Positions 42,203 to 48,450 are shown, numbered from the stretch's first letter. The stretch: DNA of 64,000 bases from Sulfuriroseicoccus oceanibius (GCF_010681825.2 NZ_CP066776.1:3348001-3412000); one strand, 5' to 3'. A program made the numbers and translations. Notes: generated from the letters alone by a model not told the origin.

Positions 42203-43375
42203 ATGATTTACCTCGACAACAACGCCACCACCCCGCTGCTGCCCGAAGTCGTCGACGCAATGTTGCCGTTTCTCACCAAGCACTACGCCAACCCATCAGT
42301 GGCGTACGACTTTGCTGCACCGGTGCGCGAAGCGATGGAGAAAGCACACGTTCAGGTGGCGGAGTTGATCAACGCCTCGCCGGAGGAAATCATCTTCACC
42401 GGCTGTGGCACGGAAGCAGACAACTCAGCAATCGCCTCGGCGCTGGCACTACAGCCATCCCGCAAGAAAGTGGTGGTCGGAGCTACCGAGCACAGCGCCA
42501 TCGGCAAAGCCGCCGCCCACATCGCGGGCAAACAAAACGTGCTCGTCATTCCGGTCCAACGAGATGGTCGGCTCGACCTGGAGGTGCTCCGCTCCACACT
42601 CGAAAACCACGCCCCCGAGATCGCACTGGTTTCCATCATGTGGGCGAACAACGAAACCGGTGTGATCCACCCGGTGGAGGAAATTGCAGCCCTCACCCAG
42701 GCCGCCGGCATCCCATTCCACACCGACGCCATCCAGGCAGCAGGGAAAGTCCCGATCGACGTCGCCGCCCTGCCCGTCACCTACCTCTCACTGGCAGCGC
42801 ATAAGTTTCATGGCCCGAAAGGCGTGGGCGCACTCTACGTCCGCACCGGCGCTCGTTTCCGCAACCAACTCGTCGGCGGCGGACAAGAAGCGGGACGCCG
42901 CGCCGGCACGGAGAATGTCGCCGGCATCGTCGCGATGGGCGCCGCCGCGGAAGCCATGCGCTATCGCATCGCCGATGGTGTGATGCATCGCGTCGAGCTC
43001 CTGCGAAACCATTTCGAGAATCTGGTCGTCGACGGTCTGGACAGTGTCACGATCAATGGCTCGCCGGAGCACCGCGTGCCGAACACATCGAACCTGTGCA
43101 TTTCCGGTGCCCGCGCCGAGGCAATGCTGATGCTTCTCGACGAAGCGGGGCTCTGCTGTTCATCGGGCTCGGCATGCAAAACCGGCAGCAGCGCTCCATC
43201 GGCAGTGCTCACCGCAATGGGGATCCCAGCGCGCGACGCACGAACCAGCTTGCGCTTTTCCCTGAGCTCGCTGACCACTGCGGTCGAGGTCGAATCCGCC
43301 GCCAAGCTGGTGATCGATGCCGCCGTCCGCGTCCGCCGGGAATCGCCCCAAGGCGGAGTCGTCATCCACAGCTAA
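42203..43375 (+). CDS. Cysteine desulfurase, NifS/IscS-type
   Basis: 390 residues, PLP-dependent. IYLDNNATTPLLPEV start; PLP lysine in SLAAHKFHGPKGVGALY; the active cysteine in CCSSGSACKTGSSAPS loop, the long-loop form typical of class I desulfurases (IscS/NifS). It takes sulfur from cysteine for Fe-S clusters, thiolation or, in some species, supplies selenium. It lies 23 bases upstream of the SufS gene and upstream of the selenoprotein A gene. Confidence 0.93.
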   Translation: MIYLDNNATTPLLPEVVDAMLPFLTKHYANPSVAYDFAAPVREAMEKAHVQVAELINASPEEIIFTGCGTEADNSAIASALALQPSRKKVVVGATEHSAIGKAAAHIAGKQNVLVIPVQRDGRLDLEVLRSTLENHAPEIALVSIMWANNETGVIHPVEEIAALTQAAGIPFHTDAIQAAGKVPIDVAALPVTYLSLAAHKFHGPKGVGALYVRTGARFRNQLVGGGQEAGRRAGTENVAGIVAMGAAAEAMRYRIADGVMHRVELLRNHFENLVVDGLDSVTINGSPEHRVPNTSNLCISGARAEAMLMLLDEAGLCCSSGSACKTGSSAPSAVLTAMGIPARDARTSLRFSLSSLTTAVEVESAAKLVIDAAVRVRRESPQGGVVIHS

Positions 43376-43398
43376 GTTTTTCCAACCATCTCCCAACC

Positions 43399-44628
43399 AT
43401 GTCCCCAATCGACATTCAGAAAATCCGCGAAGACTTCCCGATTCTGCACCAGCAGATCAACGGACGCCCACTCGTGTATCTCGACAACGCGGCCACCTCG
43501 CAAAAGCCGCTCCAAGTGCTTGAGGCCTCGGCGAACTACTACCGCAACATCAACAGCAACATCCATCGCGGTGTGCACAAACTGGCGCAATCCGCTACCG
43601 CCGCCCACGAACAGGCACGCGAGACCATTGCCAAACACCTCAACGCCAGCCGCCCGGAAGAAGTCATCTTCACCTCCGGCACCACCGACAGCATCAACCT
43701 GGTGGCAAACGTGCTGGAGCGCAGTGGCACCATCGGCGAGGGCGACGAGATTCTGATCTCCGGCCTGGAGCACCACTCCAATACCGTCCCATGGCAAATG
43801 CTGTGCGAGGCAACCGGCGCGACACTCAAAGTCATCCCGGTTCTCGAAGACGGATCACTCGATCAGGAGGCGTTCGCCACGCTGCTCGGCCCACAAACCA
43901 AGGTACTCTCGGTCAACCAAGTCTCGAACGCACTCGGCACCATCAACCCGGTGAAGGATATGATCGCCGCCGCACGCAAGGTTGGTGACGTCATCACGGT
44001 TGTCGACGGCGCCCAGTCGATCCCACACATGGCAATCGACGTGCAGGACCTCGATTGCGATTTCTTCGCGTTTTCCGGCCATAAAGTTTTCGCTCCGACC
44101 GGTGTCGGCATCCTGTTCGGCAAGTACGACCTGCTTGAGAAACTCCCCCCATGGAAGGGCGGCGGCGAAATGATCCGCCTGGTCACTTTCGAAAAGACCA
44201 CCTACAACGATCCACCGTTCAAATACGAGGCCGGCACCCCGAACATCGAAGGTGGCATCGCCCTGGCTGCTGCCCTCGACTACGCCAATGCCATCGGGAT
44301 GGACAACATCTACGCCCAGGAAAAGTTGCTACTCGACCGCGCGACCGCAGGCTTGAGCGAGATCGACGGCGTCAAGATCTACGGCACCTGCCCAAACAAA
44401 GCATCAGTGCTTTCGTTCCTCATCGAGGGCATCCACCACTTCGATCTGGGCTCGATCATGGACCAAATGGGTGTCGCCGTCCGCACCGGTCACCACTGCT
44501 GCCAGCCACTGATGTCACGCTTCGGCATCACCGGCACAGTGCGCGCCTCGTTCGCCGTCTACAACACGGAAGAAGAAGTCGATGCATTCATCGCCGCAGT
44601 TAAAAAAGGCGCGATGATGCTAAGCTAA
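43399..44628 (+). CDS. sufS: Cysteine desulfurase/selenocysteine lyase, SufS-type
   Basis: 409 residues of the class II desulfurase family. YLDNAATSQKPLQV near the start, the PLP lysine in FAFSGHKVFAPTGVGILFG, and the active cysteine in RTGHHCCQPLM (family RTGHHCAQP). Members (SufS, CsdB) cleave cysteine and also selenocysteine, releasing selenide-type selenium usable by SelD. Known: this family has selenocysteine lyase activity. Inferred: its position 86 bases ahead of a selenoprotein gene may be functional. No sufBCDE genes are adjacent. The ATG at 43399 was chosen. Confidence 0.94.
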   Translation: MSPIDIQKIREDFPILHQQINGRPLVYLDNAATSQKPLQVLEASANYYRNINSNIHRGVHKLAQSATAAHEQARETIAKHLNASRPEEVIFTSGTTDSINLVANVLERSGTIGEGDEILISGLEHHSNTVPWQMLCEATGATLKVIPVLEDGSLDQEAFATLLGPQTKVLSVNQVSNALGTINPVKDMIAAARKVGDVITVVDGAQSIPHMAIDVQDLDCDFFAFSGHKVFAPTGVGILFGKYDLLEKLPPWKGGGEMIRLVTFEKTTYNDPPFKYEAGTPNIEGGIALAAALDYANAIGMDNIYAQEKLLLDRATAGLSEIDGVKIYGTCPNKASVLSFLIEGIHHFDLGSIMDQMGVAVRTGHHCCQPLMSRFGITGTVRASFAVYNTEEEVDAFIAAVKKGAMMLS

Positions 44629-44714: not shown

Positions 44715-45431
44715 ATGATCTCCCATCCTCTTCGCTCCATCGCGCGCTTGCTACTCGCGTTGGTGGTCACCTGGGCCTCTCTGGGGACGGCCGCAGCCGC
44801 CGACGACAAGATTGACGTTGCCAAGCACTTCGAAGGCAAGTTGCTCAAGCTTGCCTCCAACGGCCAACCAGTTCCCTACGAAACGACGGCCAAGCCGCAG
44901 TTCTACCTGATCTACTTCGCCGCCAGCTGGTGAGGCCCATGCGCGAAAGTGACACCCGGGTTGGTGTCCAAATACCGTGAACTCAAGCAAGGTCCTAACG
45001 GCAATCAGTTCGAAGTCATCTTCGTCTCGGCAGACCGAGGTCCCGACGAAATGATCAAGTACATGCGCAAGACCAGCATGCCGTGGCCTGCGCTCGACTA
45101 CATCGAGATGAACAGCGCGAAGCCATTTCGCAAAATGACGGGAGGCGGCATCCCGAACGCACTTCTTGTCACCAAAGACGGCCGCTACATCAACAGTGGC
45201 TACAAGAACAAGGGCAAAGGAAAATACCAAGGTGTTGGCCCGGTCGTTGAAACCTTGGAGCAACTTCTCTCCGTCGAAGGTGGCGCCGAGGCAGTCGAAG
45301 AAGCCGCCGAGAGCGCGGTAAAGGAAGCTGCCGCCAAGGCCGCTGCCATATTCGATGTGTCACAGACCCGCTGGACCGTTGCCATCGTGCTGGCCTCCCT
45401 GACCTTCCTGTTCCTTTTCTTCAAGCGCTAG
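44715..45431 (+). CDS. Exported thioredoxin-like selenoprotein A (UGPC motif, in-frame TGA = Sec73)
   Basis: 238 residues read through the TGA at 44931-44933. Order: signal peptide (MISHPLRSIARLLLALVVTW then ASLGTAAAA), a short N-terminal part, the beta strand FYLIYFAASW, then U-G-P-C. Downstream the thioredoxin fold goes on: SKYRELKQGPN, FEVIFVSADRG, MPWPALDY, and the cis-proline loop GGGIPNALLVTKDG. The C-terminus has one membrane helix (WTVAIVLASLTFLFLFFKR), so it is anchored facing the periplasm. Without read-through, each half makes no sense: the first stops at the active-site tryptophan and the second has no good start. The related TGA-containing genes B and C support Sec. A TTG start upstream at 44658 is possible but lacks a good signal. 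Confidence 0.85.
44931..44968 (+). promoter_or_regulatory. TGA (Sec) codon and SECIS-like hairpin of gene A
   Basis: TGA at 44931-44933, then 17 bases, then GACACC-CGGGTT-GGTGTC (44951-44968): a perfect 6-bp stem with a GG-containing 6-base loop. Bacterial SECIS elements sit right after the UGA and have a short stem with G in the apical loop, bound by SelB. Confidence 0.75.
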
Positions 45432-45441
45432 TTGCTTGCCA

Positions 45442-45474
45442 GCGGGGCGTTGATTTTTTTCTGCAACGCCCCGC
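45442..45474. repeat. Inverted repeat with T tract in its loop, after selenoprotein A
   Basis: GCGGGGCGTTG (45442-45452) pairs with CAACGCCCCGC (45464-45474), 11 bp perfect; the loop holds seven T. A normal terminator has T after the stem, not in it. Confidence 0.7.
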
Positions 45475-45576
45475 AACCATCTTTCTCCATCAGGGTTCCC
45501 TTGATTAAGCCAACGCGGAAAGCACTTCAGCCCACCGCCCGAGGCCGAATCAAAAAACACTACCTGTTAAAGAAAG

Positions 45577-46050
45577 ATGAAAAAATCCGTACTCACCCTC
45601 GCTGCTCTTGCTGCCACCATCGGTTACGCTGCTGCAGATCAAGACCGCGAACGCCCACAACCGCCGGCTCCAGAAGAGATCGCCCAGCAGATGCTCGCCG
45701 ATCACGACGAGAACGGCGACGGAGCCCTCGACGCCGAGGAACTCAAGGCCGCCCACGAAGCACGAAAAGAACAGGCCAAGGAACGCCGACGCCGCAAAGG
45801 TGAAGGAAAGGGCTTCCGCAAAGGCCCACGCCCACCACGAGGTGACGGCGATGAAGATGGTCAGAAGCGCGAACGCCGCAAGCGCCCAACCGCTGAAGAC
45901 GTGATCGAAAAACATGACACCGATGCCAGCGGATCGCTCGATGAGGCAGAACTCACCGACATGATCGAAGCCCGCCGTGAACACATGCGCGAACGCCGGC
46001 ACAAGCGCGGCGGCGGCCGTGGCCCACGCGGACCAATCGACCAAGACTAA
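45577..46050 (+). CDS. Secreted EF-hand protein, 157 residues
   Basis: A signal peptide (MKKSVLTLAALAATIGYAAA) leads to two EF-hand loops: DHDENGDGALDAEEL (about residues 42-56) and KHDTDASGSLDEAEL (about 110-124), each with the D-x-D-x-D/S-G pattern of calcium-binding loops. Between and after them are very basic Arg/Lys/Gly stretches (RRRKGEGKGFRKGPRPPRGD). The family is a common secreted EF-hand type in Verrucomicrobiota and Planctomycetes; function is not known. It lies 145 bases after selenoprotein A with its own terminator. Confidence 0.82.
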   Translation: MKKSVLTLAALAATIGYAAADQDRERPQPPAPEEIAQQMLADHDENGDGALDAEELKAAHEARKEQAKERRRRKGEGKGFRKGPRPPRGDGDEDGQKRERRKRPTAEDVIEKHDTDASGSLDEAELTDMIEARREHMRERRHKRGGGRGPRGPIDQD

Positions 46051-46075
46051 TCCCCTCCGACTGAATTCAGCCACC

Positions 46076-46112
46076 AGCCGACTCCCTCACTTGGGAGTCG
46101 GCTGATTTTTTT
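46076..46112 (+). terminator. Rho-independent terminator after the EF-hand gene
   Basis: AGCCGACTCCC pairs with GGGAGTCGGCT, followed by GA and seven T. Confidence 0.9.
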
Positions 46113-46421
46113 GCTGCGTACGCGGCCGCTGGGAAGGAACACAACACGCCCCAACAGGTCGGACCTGATGTATTGATCGGCAGCGATGCCGATTCCGATA
46201 GCGAAGAGAGAGGCTGCTGGAGCTGGGCGATACCTCAAAGCTCAGCTTATGAACCAACCAAATCGGCATCCTCCCTGACAGGGAGGCGCAAACCAGCCTG
46301 GGGTGACGGGAGCCTCAGGCGACCACACCCTGGGATCACCGTGCCCTACCAGCCGGCCGAGCCGACGACCTCGTCGAAACCCTAAGCCCCCCCCCGATGG
46401 CCGCTAAAGAAAACGCAGCCA
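46113..46421. other. Gene-free stretch
   Basis: About 310 bases between the EF-hand terminator and the end of the lipoprotein gene on the other strand. I see no good frame, RNA or repeat shared with the rest of the window. Confidence 0.6.
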
Positions 46422-47006
46422 TTACTGACCGACCATCTCTTTGATATCTTTGAACGTGAACGATTCTTCACGTCCGCTCAGCGGAACGATATTGTCCACC
46501 GGTTCATCATCGAGATATCGGTCATTGCTGACCTCGACATTATCGTAGGTCGAGTAGCTCTTCCCTTGGAGCCGGCTATCCGACGTGGCGTACTCACCGG
46601 TCTTGTAATTCTTGCGGTCAGTCAGCGCCCGCTCATTACCGCCCCGATAGGCACTGGTCGCAAACGCCTGACTGGCATCACGTGCTTCGTTGGTGCGGAA
46701 TTCAGACACGCCGCGGTAGTTCTGAGTGCGGAACTCCCCGCTCTTGAACTCACTCACACGGTAGTCACTACGCAACTTGGTCTTTCCTTCCGCTCTGAAG
46801 CCCTTTTTCTCAAACTGACTGCGGCGCCCTCCGCCCCCTCCACCGCTGTACATTTGGTTATTCGCAAGACGCTCCTCAAACGAGCCGCCAGAATAGGAGA
46901 CATCATCCCCTGCGGAGCCAGAGCTCTTGCAGCCCACAGAAAAGCTCACCGCCGCCACGAGGAGTGACGATGCCAAAAGACGAAACGGATGGATCCCTGC
47001 GCTCAC
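46422..47006 (-). CDS. Predicted lipoprotein, 194 residues
   Basis: Signal with lipobox: HPFRLLASSLLVAAVSFSVGC, cysteine near residue 26 (given to 20: FRLLASSLLVAAVSFSVGC). The mature protein is low-complexity and polar: a GGGGGG run, several RT/EF/YR repeats such as FRTQNYRGVSEFRTNEAR and KNYKTGEYATSD. It resembles disordered surface lipoproteins; no domain is recognised. It diverges from the selenoprotein B-C operon. Confidence 0.75.
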   Translation of the reverse strand: MSAGIHPFRLLASSLLVAAVSFSVGCKSSGSAGDDVSYSGGSFEERLANNQMYSGGGGGGRRSQFEKKGFRAEGKTKLRSDYRVSEFKSGEFRTQNYRGVSEFRTNEARDASQAFATSAYRGGNERALTDRKNYKTGEYATSDSRLQGKSYSTYDNVEVSNDRYLDDEPVDNIVPLSGREESFTFKDIKEMVGQ

Positions 47007-47123
47007 GGGCGAGACCCTACTCTCTCCGCCAGAACGGGTAAAGGGGAATTGTCACAGGCGGAGCCGCAGAAATGCGTTACATTTGAGCAAGGAATTCGAA
47101 CTTTTTTCGTAATCCCCACCGCT

Positions 47124-47151
47124 TTGATCGTTCCTGCGTCATAGGTATTCT
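47124..47151 (+). promoter_or_regulatory. Candidate promoter of the selenoprotein B-C operon
   Basis: TTGATC (47124-47129) and TATTCT (47146-47151) are 16 bases apart, about 55 bases before the ATG at 47205. Weak evidence: only one of many such pairs a random search would find. Confidence 0.3.
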
Positions 47152-47204
47152 CATGTTCAGGCCGTGCCTGAGCCCACACACACTCCAAGCACACACATCC
47201 ACCC

Positions 47205-47894
47205 ATGAAAACACACTGCAGAAGCCTCGCTCTGGCTGGTCTGGCGCTCGCACTCAGCGCCAGCGCGGATGCCAGAACCTGGACCAGCTCTGACGGCTCC
47301 AAGACATTCGAAGGCACGTTCATCAGCGAACGCGGCGAGAAAGTCACCGTCGATGTCAACGGCCGCCGCCTCACATTCACAAAAGACAAACTGTCCGAGG
47401 CCGACCAAACATGGATCGCTGAGAACAGCAAACCTGAACCACCAGAAGCCACCGGAGAAGCGGATCTGTCGTCACAAGCAATCGGCAAAGAGGTGGAGAA
47501 GAAACTCGCCAAACTCGACGGCAAACGGGTCAAATCCTACAAACTGACCAAAGCACCCGAGTACTACATCCTTTACTTCTCGGCCAGCTGGTGAGGCCCT
47601 TGTAAATCTTCTGCTCCACAGTTGGTGGAGAAATACAACGACCAGATCGCCGATAACGACAAAGCCGAGATGATTCACATCAGTCTCGACCGCAGCGATG
47701 AAGCCGCAGAGAAGTGGGCAAAAAACGCCAAGATGCCATGGCCTATCATGCTTCCTAAAAAGGCCAACAAGACATCATTGAAGAAATTTGCCGGACGCGG
47801 TGTCCCTCACTACGTCCTCGTCGACAAAGATGGCAACAAACTCGCAGAAGGCCAATACCAAGCCTTCAGCAAACTGAAGGAACTGACCAAATAA
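47205..47894 (+). CDS. Exported thioredoxin-like selenoprotein B with SHD1-like domain (UGPC, in-frame TGA = Sec130)
   Basis: 229 residues when the TGA at 47592-47594 is read. Order: signal peptide (MKTHCRSLALAGLALALSAS), an SHD1-like domain (about residues 24-75, RTWTSSDGSKTFEGTFISER then VTVDVNGRRLTFTKDKLSEAD), a linker, then the thioredoxin-like domain: EYYILYFSASW-U-GPCKSSAPQLVEKY, AEMIHISLDRSDEAAEKWA, MPWPIMLPKKAN and GRGVPHYVLVDKDGNKLAEG with the cis-proline. SHD1-like domains are usual in secreted Planctomycete and Verrucomicrobial proteins. The next gene starts 6 bases after its stop. Confidence 0.88.
47592..47630 (+). promoter_or_regulatory. TGA (Sec) codon and SECIS-like hairpin of gene B
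   Basis: TGA at 47592-47594, 19 bases, then CTCCAC-AGTTG-GTGGAG (47614-47630): 6-bp perfect stem with a 5-base loop containing GTTG. Same layout as gene A with different bases. Confidence 0.78.
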
Positions 47895-47900
47895 CACCCC

Positions 47901-48389
47901 ATGAAGCAATTCGCTCTCCCCATAGTCAAGGCGCTCGCATTCCTCGCGATCGCAGCAACCGCCCACGCCGGCACGATCAAAGAAAAACTCGCTGGGAACA
48001 CATCGGTGCTCGAAGGCACTGAGTTCAAAGCCCAGGATATCCAAGGCGAGCCGGAATATTACATTCTCTATTTCTCGGCCAGCTGGTGAGGACCATGCCG
48101 TAGTACCGCTCCACAGTTGGTGGAGACTTACGCGAAGACCATCGCCACGAACGACAAAGTCGAAATGGTGCACCTCAGCGCCGACCGCAACGCAAAAGCC
48201 GCGACTACCTGGGCGGCCAAGGAAAAGTTCCCATGGCCAACCGTCCTTCCTGAAAAGGTGAAAGCCACCGGGTTGGAAAAGTACGCCGCAGGCTACGTTC
48301 CCGACTACATCCTCGTCGATAAAGAAGGCAAGGAACTGGCCCGCAAGAGCGGCGCCGTATTCGCCAAGCTCAAAGAACTCACCGAGTAA
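47901..48389 (+). CDS. Exported thioredoxin-like selenoprotein C (UGPC, in-frame TGA = Sec63)
   Basis: 162 residues through the TGA at 48087-48089. It is the shortest of the three: signal peptide (FALPIVKALAFLAIAATAHA), a 30-residue lead, then EYYILYFSASW-U-GPCRSTAPQLVETYAKT, VEMVHLSADRN, FPWPTVLPEKV and AGYVPDYILVDKEGKELAR with the cis-proline. It is clearly a duplicate of B: from YYILYFSASWUGPC to the end they align with few gaps. It follows B by 6 bases, so B and C are one operon, closed by the terminator at 48416. Confidence 0.88.
48087..48125 (+). promoter_or_regulatory. TGA (Sec) codon and SECIS-like hairpin of gene C
   Basis: TGA at 48087-48089, 19 bases, then CTCCAC-AGTTG-GTGGAG (48109-48125), identical to gene B, though other bases between TGA and stem differ. 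Confidence 0.78.
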
Positions 48390-48415: not shown

Positions 48416-48450
48416 GCTCCCGCAGCCTCGCGCTGCGGGAGCATTTTTTT
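48416..48450 (+). terminator. Terminator of the selenoprotein B-C operon
   Basis: GCTCCCGCAG pairs with CTGCGGGAGC, followed by A and seven T. Confidence 0.9.

Follow-up and report, generated by a model that had tools for sequence, protein, structure and literature searches.

Predicted exported thioredoxin-like proteins with probable active-site selenocysteine in Sulfuriroseicoccus oceanibius and other Verrucomicrobiales

A 2026 review catalogued 119 prokaryotic selenoprotein families or subfamilies, and its list includes both an experimentally verified selenocysteine (Sec) thioredoxin (PF00085) and a thiol-disulfide isomerase-like protein, each with the redox motif UxxC (PMC13188914). The thiol-disulfide isomerase-like selenoprotein, which is TlpA-like, was predicted in 2005 from four sequences of the Sargasso Sea metagenome (PMC1088965) and was filed under pfam13905 in 2022 (PMC9312934, where MAK15852.1 is a catalogued entry). 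Verrucomicrobia go unmentioned in the accessible text of the selenoprotein reviews PMC13188914 and PMC9312934, and a literature search that covered few subscription papers found no report of a thioredoxin-type selenoprotein in Verrucomicrobia. Here we describe three thioredoxin-like genes in a 64,000-nucleotide stretch of S. oceanibius DNA (the window). Their best explanation, to which we assign a probability of about 0.9, is that they are selenoprotein genes in which a bacterial SECIS (bSECIS) hairpin directs Sec into a WUGPC motif, and that their products are exported tryparedoxin/ResA-like thiol-disulfide oxidoreductases, probably reduced via DsbD.

Each of the three frames (Table 1) contains a single in-frame TGA, which occupies the x of an xGPC motif that follows Ser-Trp. 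As the original prediction had claimed, the TGA takes the same place in the redox motif of all three paralogs (AASW-U-GPC in gene 1, SASW-U-GPC in genes 2 and 3), and the frame continues through GPC into a full thioredoxin C-terminal half: 165, 99, and 99 open codons follow the TGA in genes 1, 2, and 3, with cis-Pro segments that read GIP, GVP, and YVP, respectively. The read-through products matched Pfam Thioredoxin_8 (PF13905) at 55.7, 52.7, and 44.9 bits (gathering cut-off 27), with matches that span the TGA, and the same profile was matched by 21/21 aligned family members. All three products have hydrophobic N termini with AxA-like sites, as judged by eye; the transmembrane-like tail of gene 1 is a feature the original prediction had not mentioned. 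The SHD1 fusion that it had proposed stood only in part, being confined to gene 2, where the match to SHD1 (PF03983) was weak and under the cut-off of 23.7 (14.0 bits, E 0.047). This profile reached E values down to 6.6e-5 in 2 of the 21 family members, and the structure model of gene 2 predicted strands at residues 23-59; because the match is below cut-off and strands are predicted there, we call the domain SHD1-like only. Genes 2 and 3 are separated by 6 bases and probably form an operon.

Table 1 Features of the three-gene region, in window coordinates
Feature	Span	Strand	Description
Sec-thioredoxin gene 1 (probable)	44715..45431	+	Putative signal peptide, Thioredoxin_8 with UGPC, linker rich in Ala and Glu, transmembrane-like tail at the C terminus (WTVAIVLASLTFLFLFFKR); 238 aa with TGA read
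Sec TGA codon, gene 1	44931..44933	+
Candidate bSECIS hairpin, gene 1	44951..44968	+	GACACC-CGGGTT-GGTGTC; 23 nt from UGA to loop
Sec-thioredoxin gene 2 (probable)	47205..47894	+	Putative signal peptide, SHD1-like beta domain, Thioredoxin_8 with UGPC; 229 aa
Sec TGA codon, gene 2	47592..47594	+
bSECIS hairpin, gene 2	47614..47630	+	CTCCAC-AGTTG-GTGGAG
Sec-thioredoxin gene 3 (probable)	47901..48389	+	Putative signal peptide, Thioredoxin_8 with UGPC; 162 aa
Sec TGA codon, gene 3	48087..48089	+
bSECIS hairpin, gene 3	48109..48125	+	CTCCAC-AGTTG-GTGGAG
Terminator-like hairpin downstream of gene 2-3 pair	48416..48442	+	Pattern match only

A whole-genome search found no close family members besides genes 1-3, together with four distant thioredoxins that lack the TGA. 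The original picture of a three-member family in one region therefore holds for this genome, but the family has many members across the order. We scanned named genomes for relatives using peptide patterns that lie outside the active site. Of the 48 loci recovered in this way from Akkermansiaceae, Roseibacillus, and further Verrucomicrobiales, 25 were near full length, and all 25 carry TGA at the site. The original prediction had proposed a search for SWUGPC or SWCGPC relatives, and the relatives do keep TGA at the same codon. Altogether, we collected 73 distinct TGA sites at the active-site codon, nearly all from other Verrucomicrobiales, and where homologs encode a residue at this position it is Cys, never Trp. 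A family match was present in 276/387 genomes of the order, with TGA in some and without it in others. When 388 genomes were drawn from the phylum, the TGA matches among those listed were all in Verrucomicrobiales and none came from other orders and classes, which we read as a tendency. Tandem arrays of two or three copies occur at four loci. We also considered sequencing error as the source of the TGA, and it is ruled out because the codon recurs in dozens of separate assemblies.

Several of these relatives differ in form. At Roseibacillus-type loci (L031 at 5641 and 6394, L035 at 5628 and 6394, and similar ones), a lipoprotein-like Sec thioredoxin lies immediately upstream of the SHD1-like one; it has an SCKET lipobox, an STUGPC motif, and its own hairpin (CTCCAG-AGTTR-CTGGAG). 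A divergent Sec branch (L194, L196, and L198, in family f3 genomes) carries UGAC, UGGC, or UGFC motifs and new stem sequences. One match reported with a single TGA (L192, in G080, a genome without selA) showed no TGA redox motif on inspection and is probably a decayed or misframed copy.

Sec insertion in bacteria would call for a hairpin after the UGA, and we searched for one using our own implementation of the published bSECIS model. In genes 2 and 3, the model placed an AGUUG loop 25 nt from the UGA (-9.1 kcal/mol). An alignment of 34 TGA genes showed a hairpin of six pairs with an AGTTN loop at nucleotides 23-39, where numbering starts at the T of the UGA. Standard pairs filled 90.3% of the pair cells at 74 distinct TGA sites, with 29 two-sided changes, compared with maxima of 82.9% and 10 in 2000 column shuffles; sliding the register lowered the standard pairs to 34-58%, a second pair counter gave the same direction, and in 22 Cys genes only 54.5% were paired at these columns. 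The model found a hairpin at 72/73 TGA sites versus 9/22 Cys sites, and at a mean of 13.7/73 after synonymous reshuffling. Codon choice at the loop followed the same division: wherever TGA genes have Leu there, its codon is TTR (62/62), versus 1/18 Cys genes, and such codons make up 22% of the Leu codons of the window. The Cys homolog L109 encodes the same APQLVEKY peptide as gene 2, with codons (CAA CTC GTG GAA) that break the hairpin. The stem differs in L196 (CGAAAC-AGTTG-GTTTCG) and is extended in L200. Thus, a bacterial SECIS hairpin is conserved with compensatory changes in the TGA genes and is eroded in their Cys homologs. The candidate hairpin of gene 1 (loop CGGGUU, 23 nt from the UGA, -8.6 kcal/mol) was equaled by 24 of 2000 synonymous reshuffles, and its register is unlike the one in genes 2 and 3, which puts it outside the covariation set.

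The genome, a single contig of 3.50 Mb, encodes the corresponding machinery. The original prediction had proposed a search for selA, selB, selC, and selD, and all four were found: SelA, SelB, and SelD each gave a profile match over cut-off, and tRNA-Sec was detected both by Rfam (RF01852, 65.8 bits) and by ARAGORN (tRNA-SeC, anticodon tca). The selD gene adjoins tRNA-Sec and itself contains one in-frame TGA, in the frame SSCAGUASKLG, which is the known Sec site of SelD; a hairpin (CACGCA-GGTTC-TGCGTG) follows. At least one more Sec gene, from an established family, is therefore present in this genome. These findings bear on whether the UGA could be read as Trp or as a suppressor residue instead of Sec. 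The reading frame alone cannot tell which residue is inserted, but TGA is an ordinary stop here, ending 21 of the 46 long ORFs called mechanically in the window (as had been claimed), the homologs have Cys and never Trp at the site, and the genome has its own tRNA-Sec and a Sec-type SelD; we consider such a reading highly improbable.

Across the order, selA was found in 118/387 genomes. Among the matches listed, it was present in 68/74 genomes with a TGA member versus 10/55 with non-TGA members only (odds ratio 51, Fisher p 2e-18, a p value that is generous because related genomes are not independent); the TGA position behind these counts was confirmed at the fetched loci only. Among the six TGA genomes without selA, G199, G249, and G381 have tRNA-Sec above cut-off, and G197 proved on inspection to have Cys at the site. 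In G326 and G355 (86% and 83% complete), we found a TGA member, yet neither selA nor tRNA-Sec. It could be argued that the TGAs are true stops, leaving decayed genes or a short exported N-terminal fragment, and standard gene calling does break the family genes at the TGA. However, the same codon is followed by an open second half at more than 70 distinct sites, the hairpin covaries and the codons past the TGA are biased, the genome contains Sec machinery, and TGA members are strongly associated with selA, all of which makes true stops very hard to credit. The Sec reading put forward in the original prediction is borne out by the sel genes, by the retention of TGA in relatives, and by the covarying hairpin.

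We next asked how the Sec and Cys forms are related. A tree of 85 domains required five Sec/Cys changes, three of them forced by well supported branches, and placed genes 2 and 3 within the main Sec group. Gene 1 grouped with L076, a Cys ortholog from the same genus (support 97) that shares 46% identity and the C-terminal tail; Sec and Cys have therefore been exchanged within one genus. The L076 genome has selA and tRNA-Sec, and because L076 retains GGGTTA at the loop position, a recent loss of Sec could account for its Cys. The grouping suggests an independent origin for the Sec of gene 1, which we do not claim because a tree with all Sec rows constrained together was not rejected (p-AU 0.10). 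A more speculative proposal, which we offer tentatively, is that Verrucomicrobiales run a dedicated extracytoplasmic relay with several Sec thioredoxins per genome and that in this genome gene 1, whose SECIS is built differently, acquired its Sec separately from genes 2 and 3, placing two Sec origins within 3.7 kb.

The structure model of gene 2 (mean pLDDT 88) matched a nematode thioredoxin and tryparedoxins most closely (Z 13-15 over residues 90-229), followed by StoA/ResA/DsbE-like folds (Z about 11, same residues), and the genome encodes a full-length DsbD of 737 aa. Because the hairpin is conserved, the codons are biased, and the sel genes co-occur, we infer SelB-directed insertion: SelB with Sec-tRNA(Sec) would bind the hairpin about 25 nt past the UGA, and Sec would enter at the first position of WUGPC. 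The finished chains carry signal-peptide-like N termini and so would act outside the cytoplasm, those of genes 2 and 3 free in the periplasm and that of gene 1 on a C-terminal membrane anchor. There, the Sec selenolate may attack a disulfide or oxidized thiol, the second Cys would resolve the attack as a selenenylsulfide, and this would then be reduced, most likely by the DsbD of the same genome. The fold matches, the signal-like N termini, and the full-length DsbD together point to extracytoplasmic thiol-disulfide exchange with Sec as the nucleophile and DsbD as the likely reductant; the export signals suggest a periplasmic selenium redox system.

Sec is common in peroxidases, and the AhpC-TSA and Redoxin profiles also match among the read-through products, either of which could point to a role as thiol peroxidases or peroxiredoxin-like enzymes instead of disulfide oxidoreductases. 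These proteins, however, carry UxxC at the thioredoxin position, as opposed to the TxxU of Sec peroxiredoxins (PMC13188914), and the nearest folds are tryparedoxin, StoA, and ResA. We therefore regard a peroxidase role as unlikely, though deserving more weight than either alternative reading of the TGA, and favor disulfide oxidoreductases.

The surroundings of the genes name no substrate: no neighbors are conserved beyond close relatives. Two cysteine desulfurase-type class-V aminotransferases (42203-43375 and 43096-44628, + strand) lie immediately 5' of gene 1. Enzymes of this type can supply selenium; relatives do not share this neighborhood (42203-44628). Between genes 1 and 2 lie a small EF-hand protein with a signal-peptide-like N terminus (45577-46050, + strand), a strong terminator-like hairpin past it (46075-46104), and a putative lipoprotein on the opposite strand (46422-47006), which has a lipobox-like VGCKSS and no Pfam match.

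These data place an order-wide family, split at the TGA by ordinary gene calling, in the selenoproteome of Verrucomicrobia. The relatives provide a natural experiment in which Sec and Cys forms of a near-identical peptide occur with and without the SECIS hairpin, and the presence of multiple, apparently exported Sec thioredoxins raises the question of which extracytoplasmic functions of these bacteria require selenium.

Among characterized proteins, the tryparedoxin/nucleoredoxin-like and StoA/ResA/TlpA groups resemble the present ones in supplying the best folds for the model, in the SxSW-x-xPC motif, and in the cis-Pro, but they use Cys. ResA and StoA are likewise extracytoplasmic. The Sec thioredoxin of PF00085 shares the thioredoxin fold and Sec as the first residue of UxxC, whereas Thioredoxin_8 is the better fit for the proteins described here, which also have signal-peptide-like N termini. 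No NCBIfam model, selenoprotein models included, scored above cut-off, and TsoB and TUGYCR were far below. The Grd, Prd, SAO, and Tso operons also set several selenoprotein genes side by side (PMC13188914), but the neighbors here are paralogs of one family without conserved pathway genes. Compared by domain and motif only, the Sargasso Sea thiol-disulfide isomerase-like selenoprotein has the same Pfam domain and the same UxxC; the SHD1-like fusion, membrane tail, and tandem copies seen here are not mentioned for it in the accessible portions of PMC1088965 and PMC9312934. The novelty originally suggested is thus upheld only in part, as both a Thioredoxin_8 UxxC selenoprotein and Sec thioredoxins had already been catalogued. 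Because Sec thioredoxin-like proteins, including those with Thioredoxin_8 and UxxC, have been predicted since 2005, we conclude that the genes belong to a known kind of selenoprotein, here as an order-wide set with multiple copies that is unusual in its spread, copy number, and architecture.
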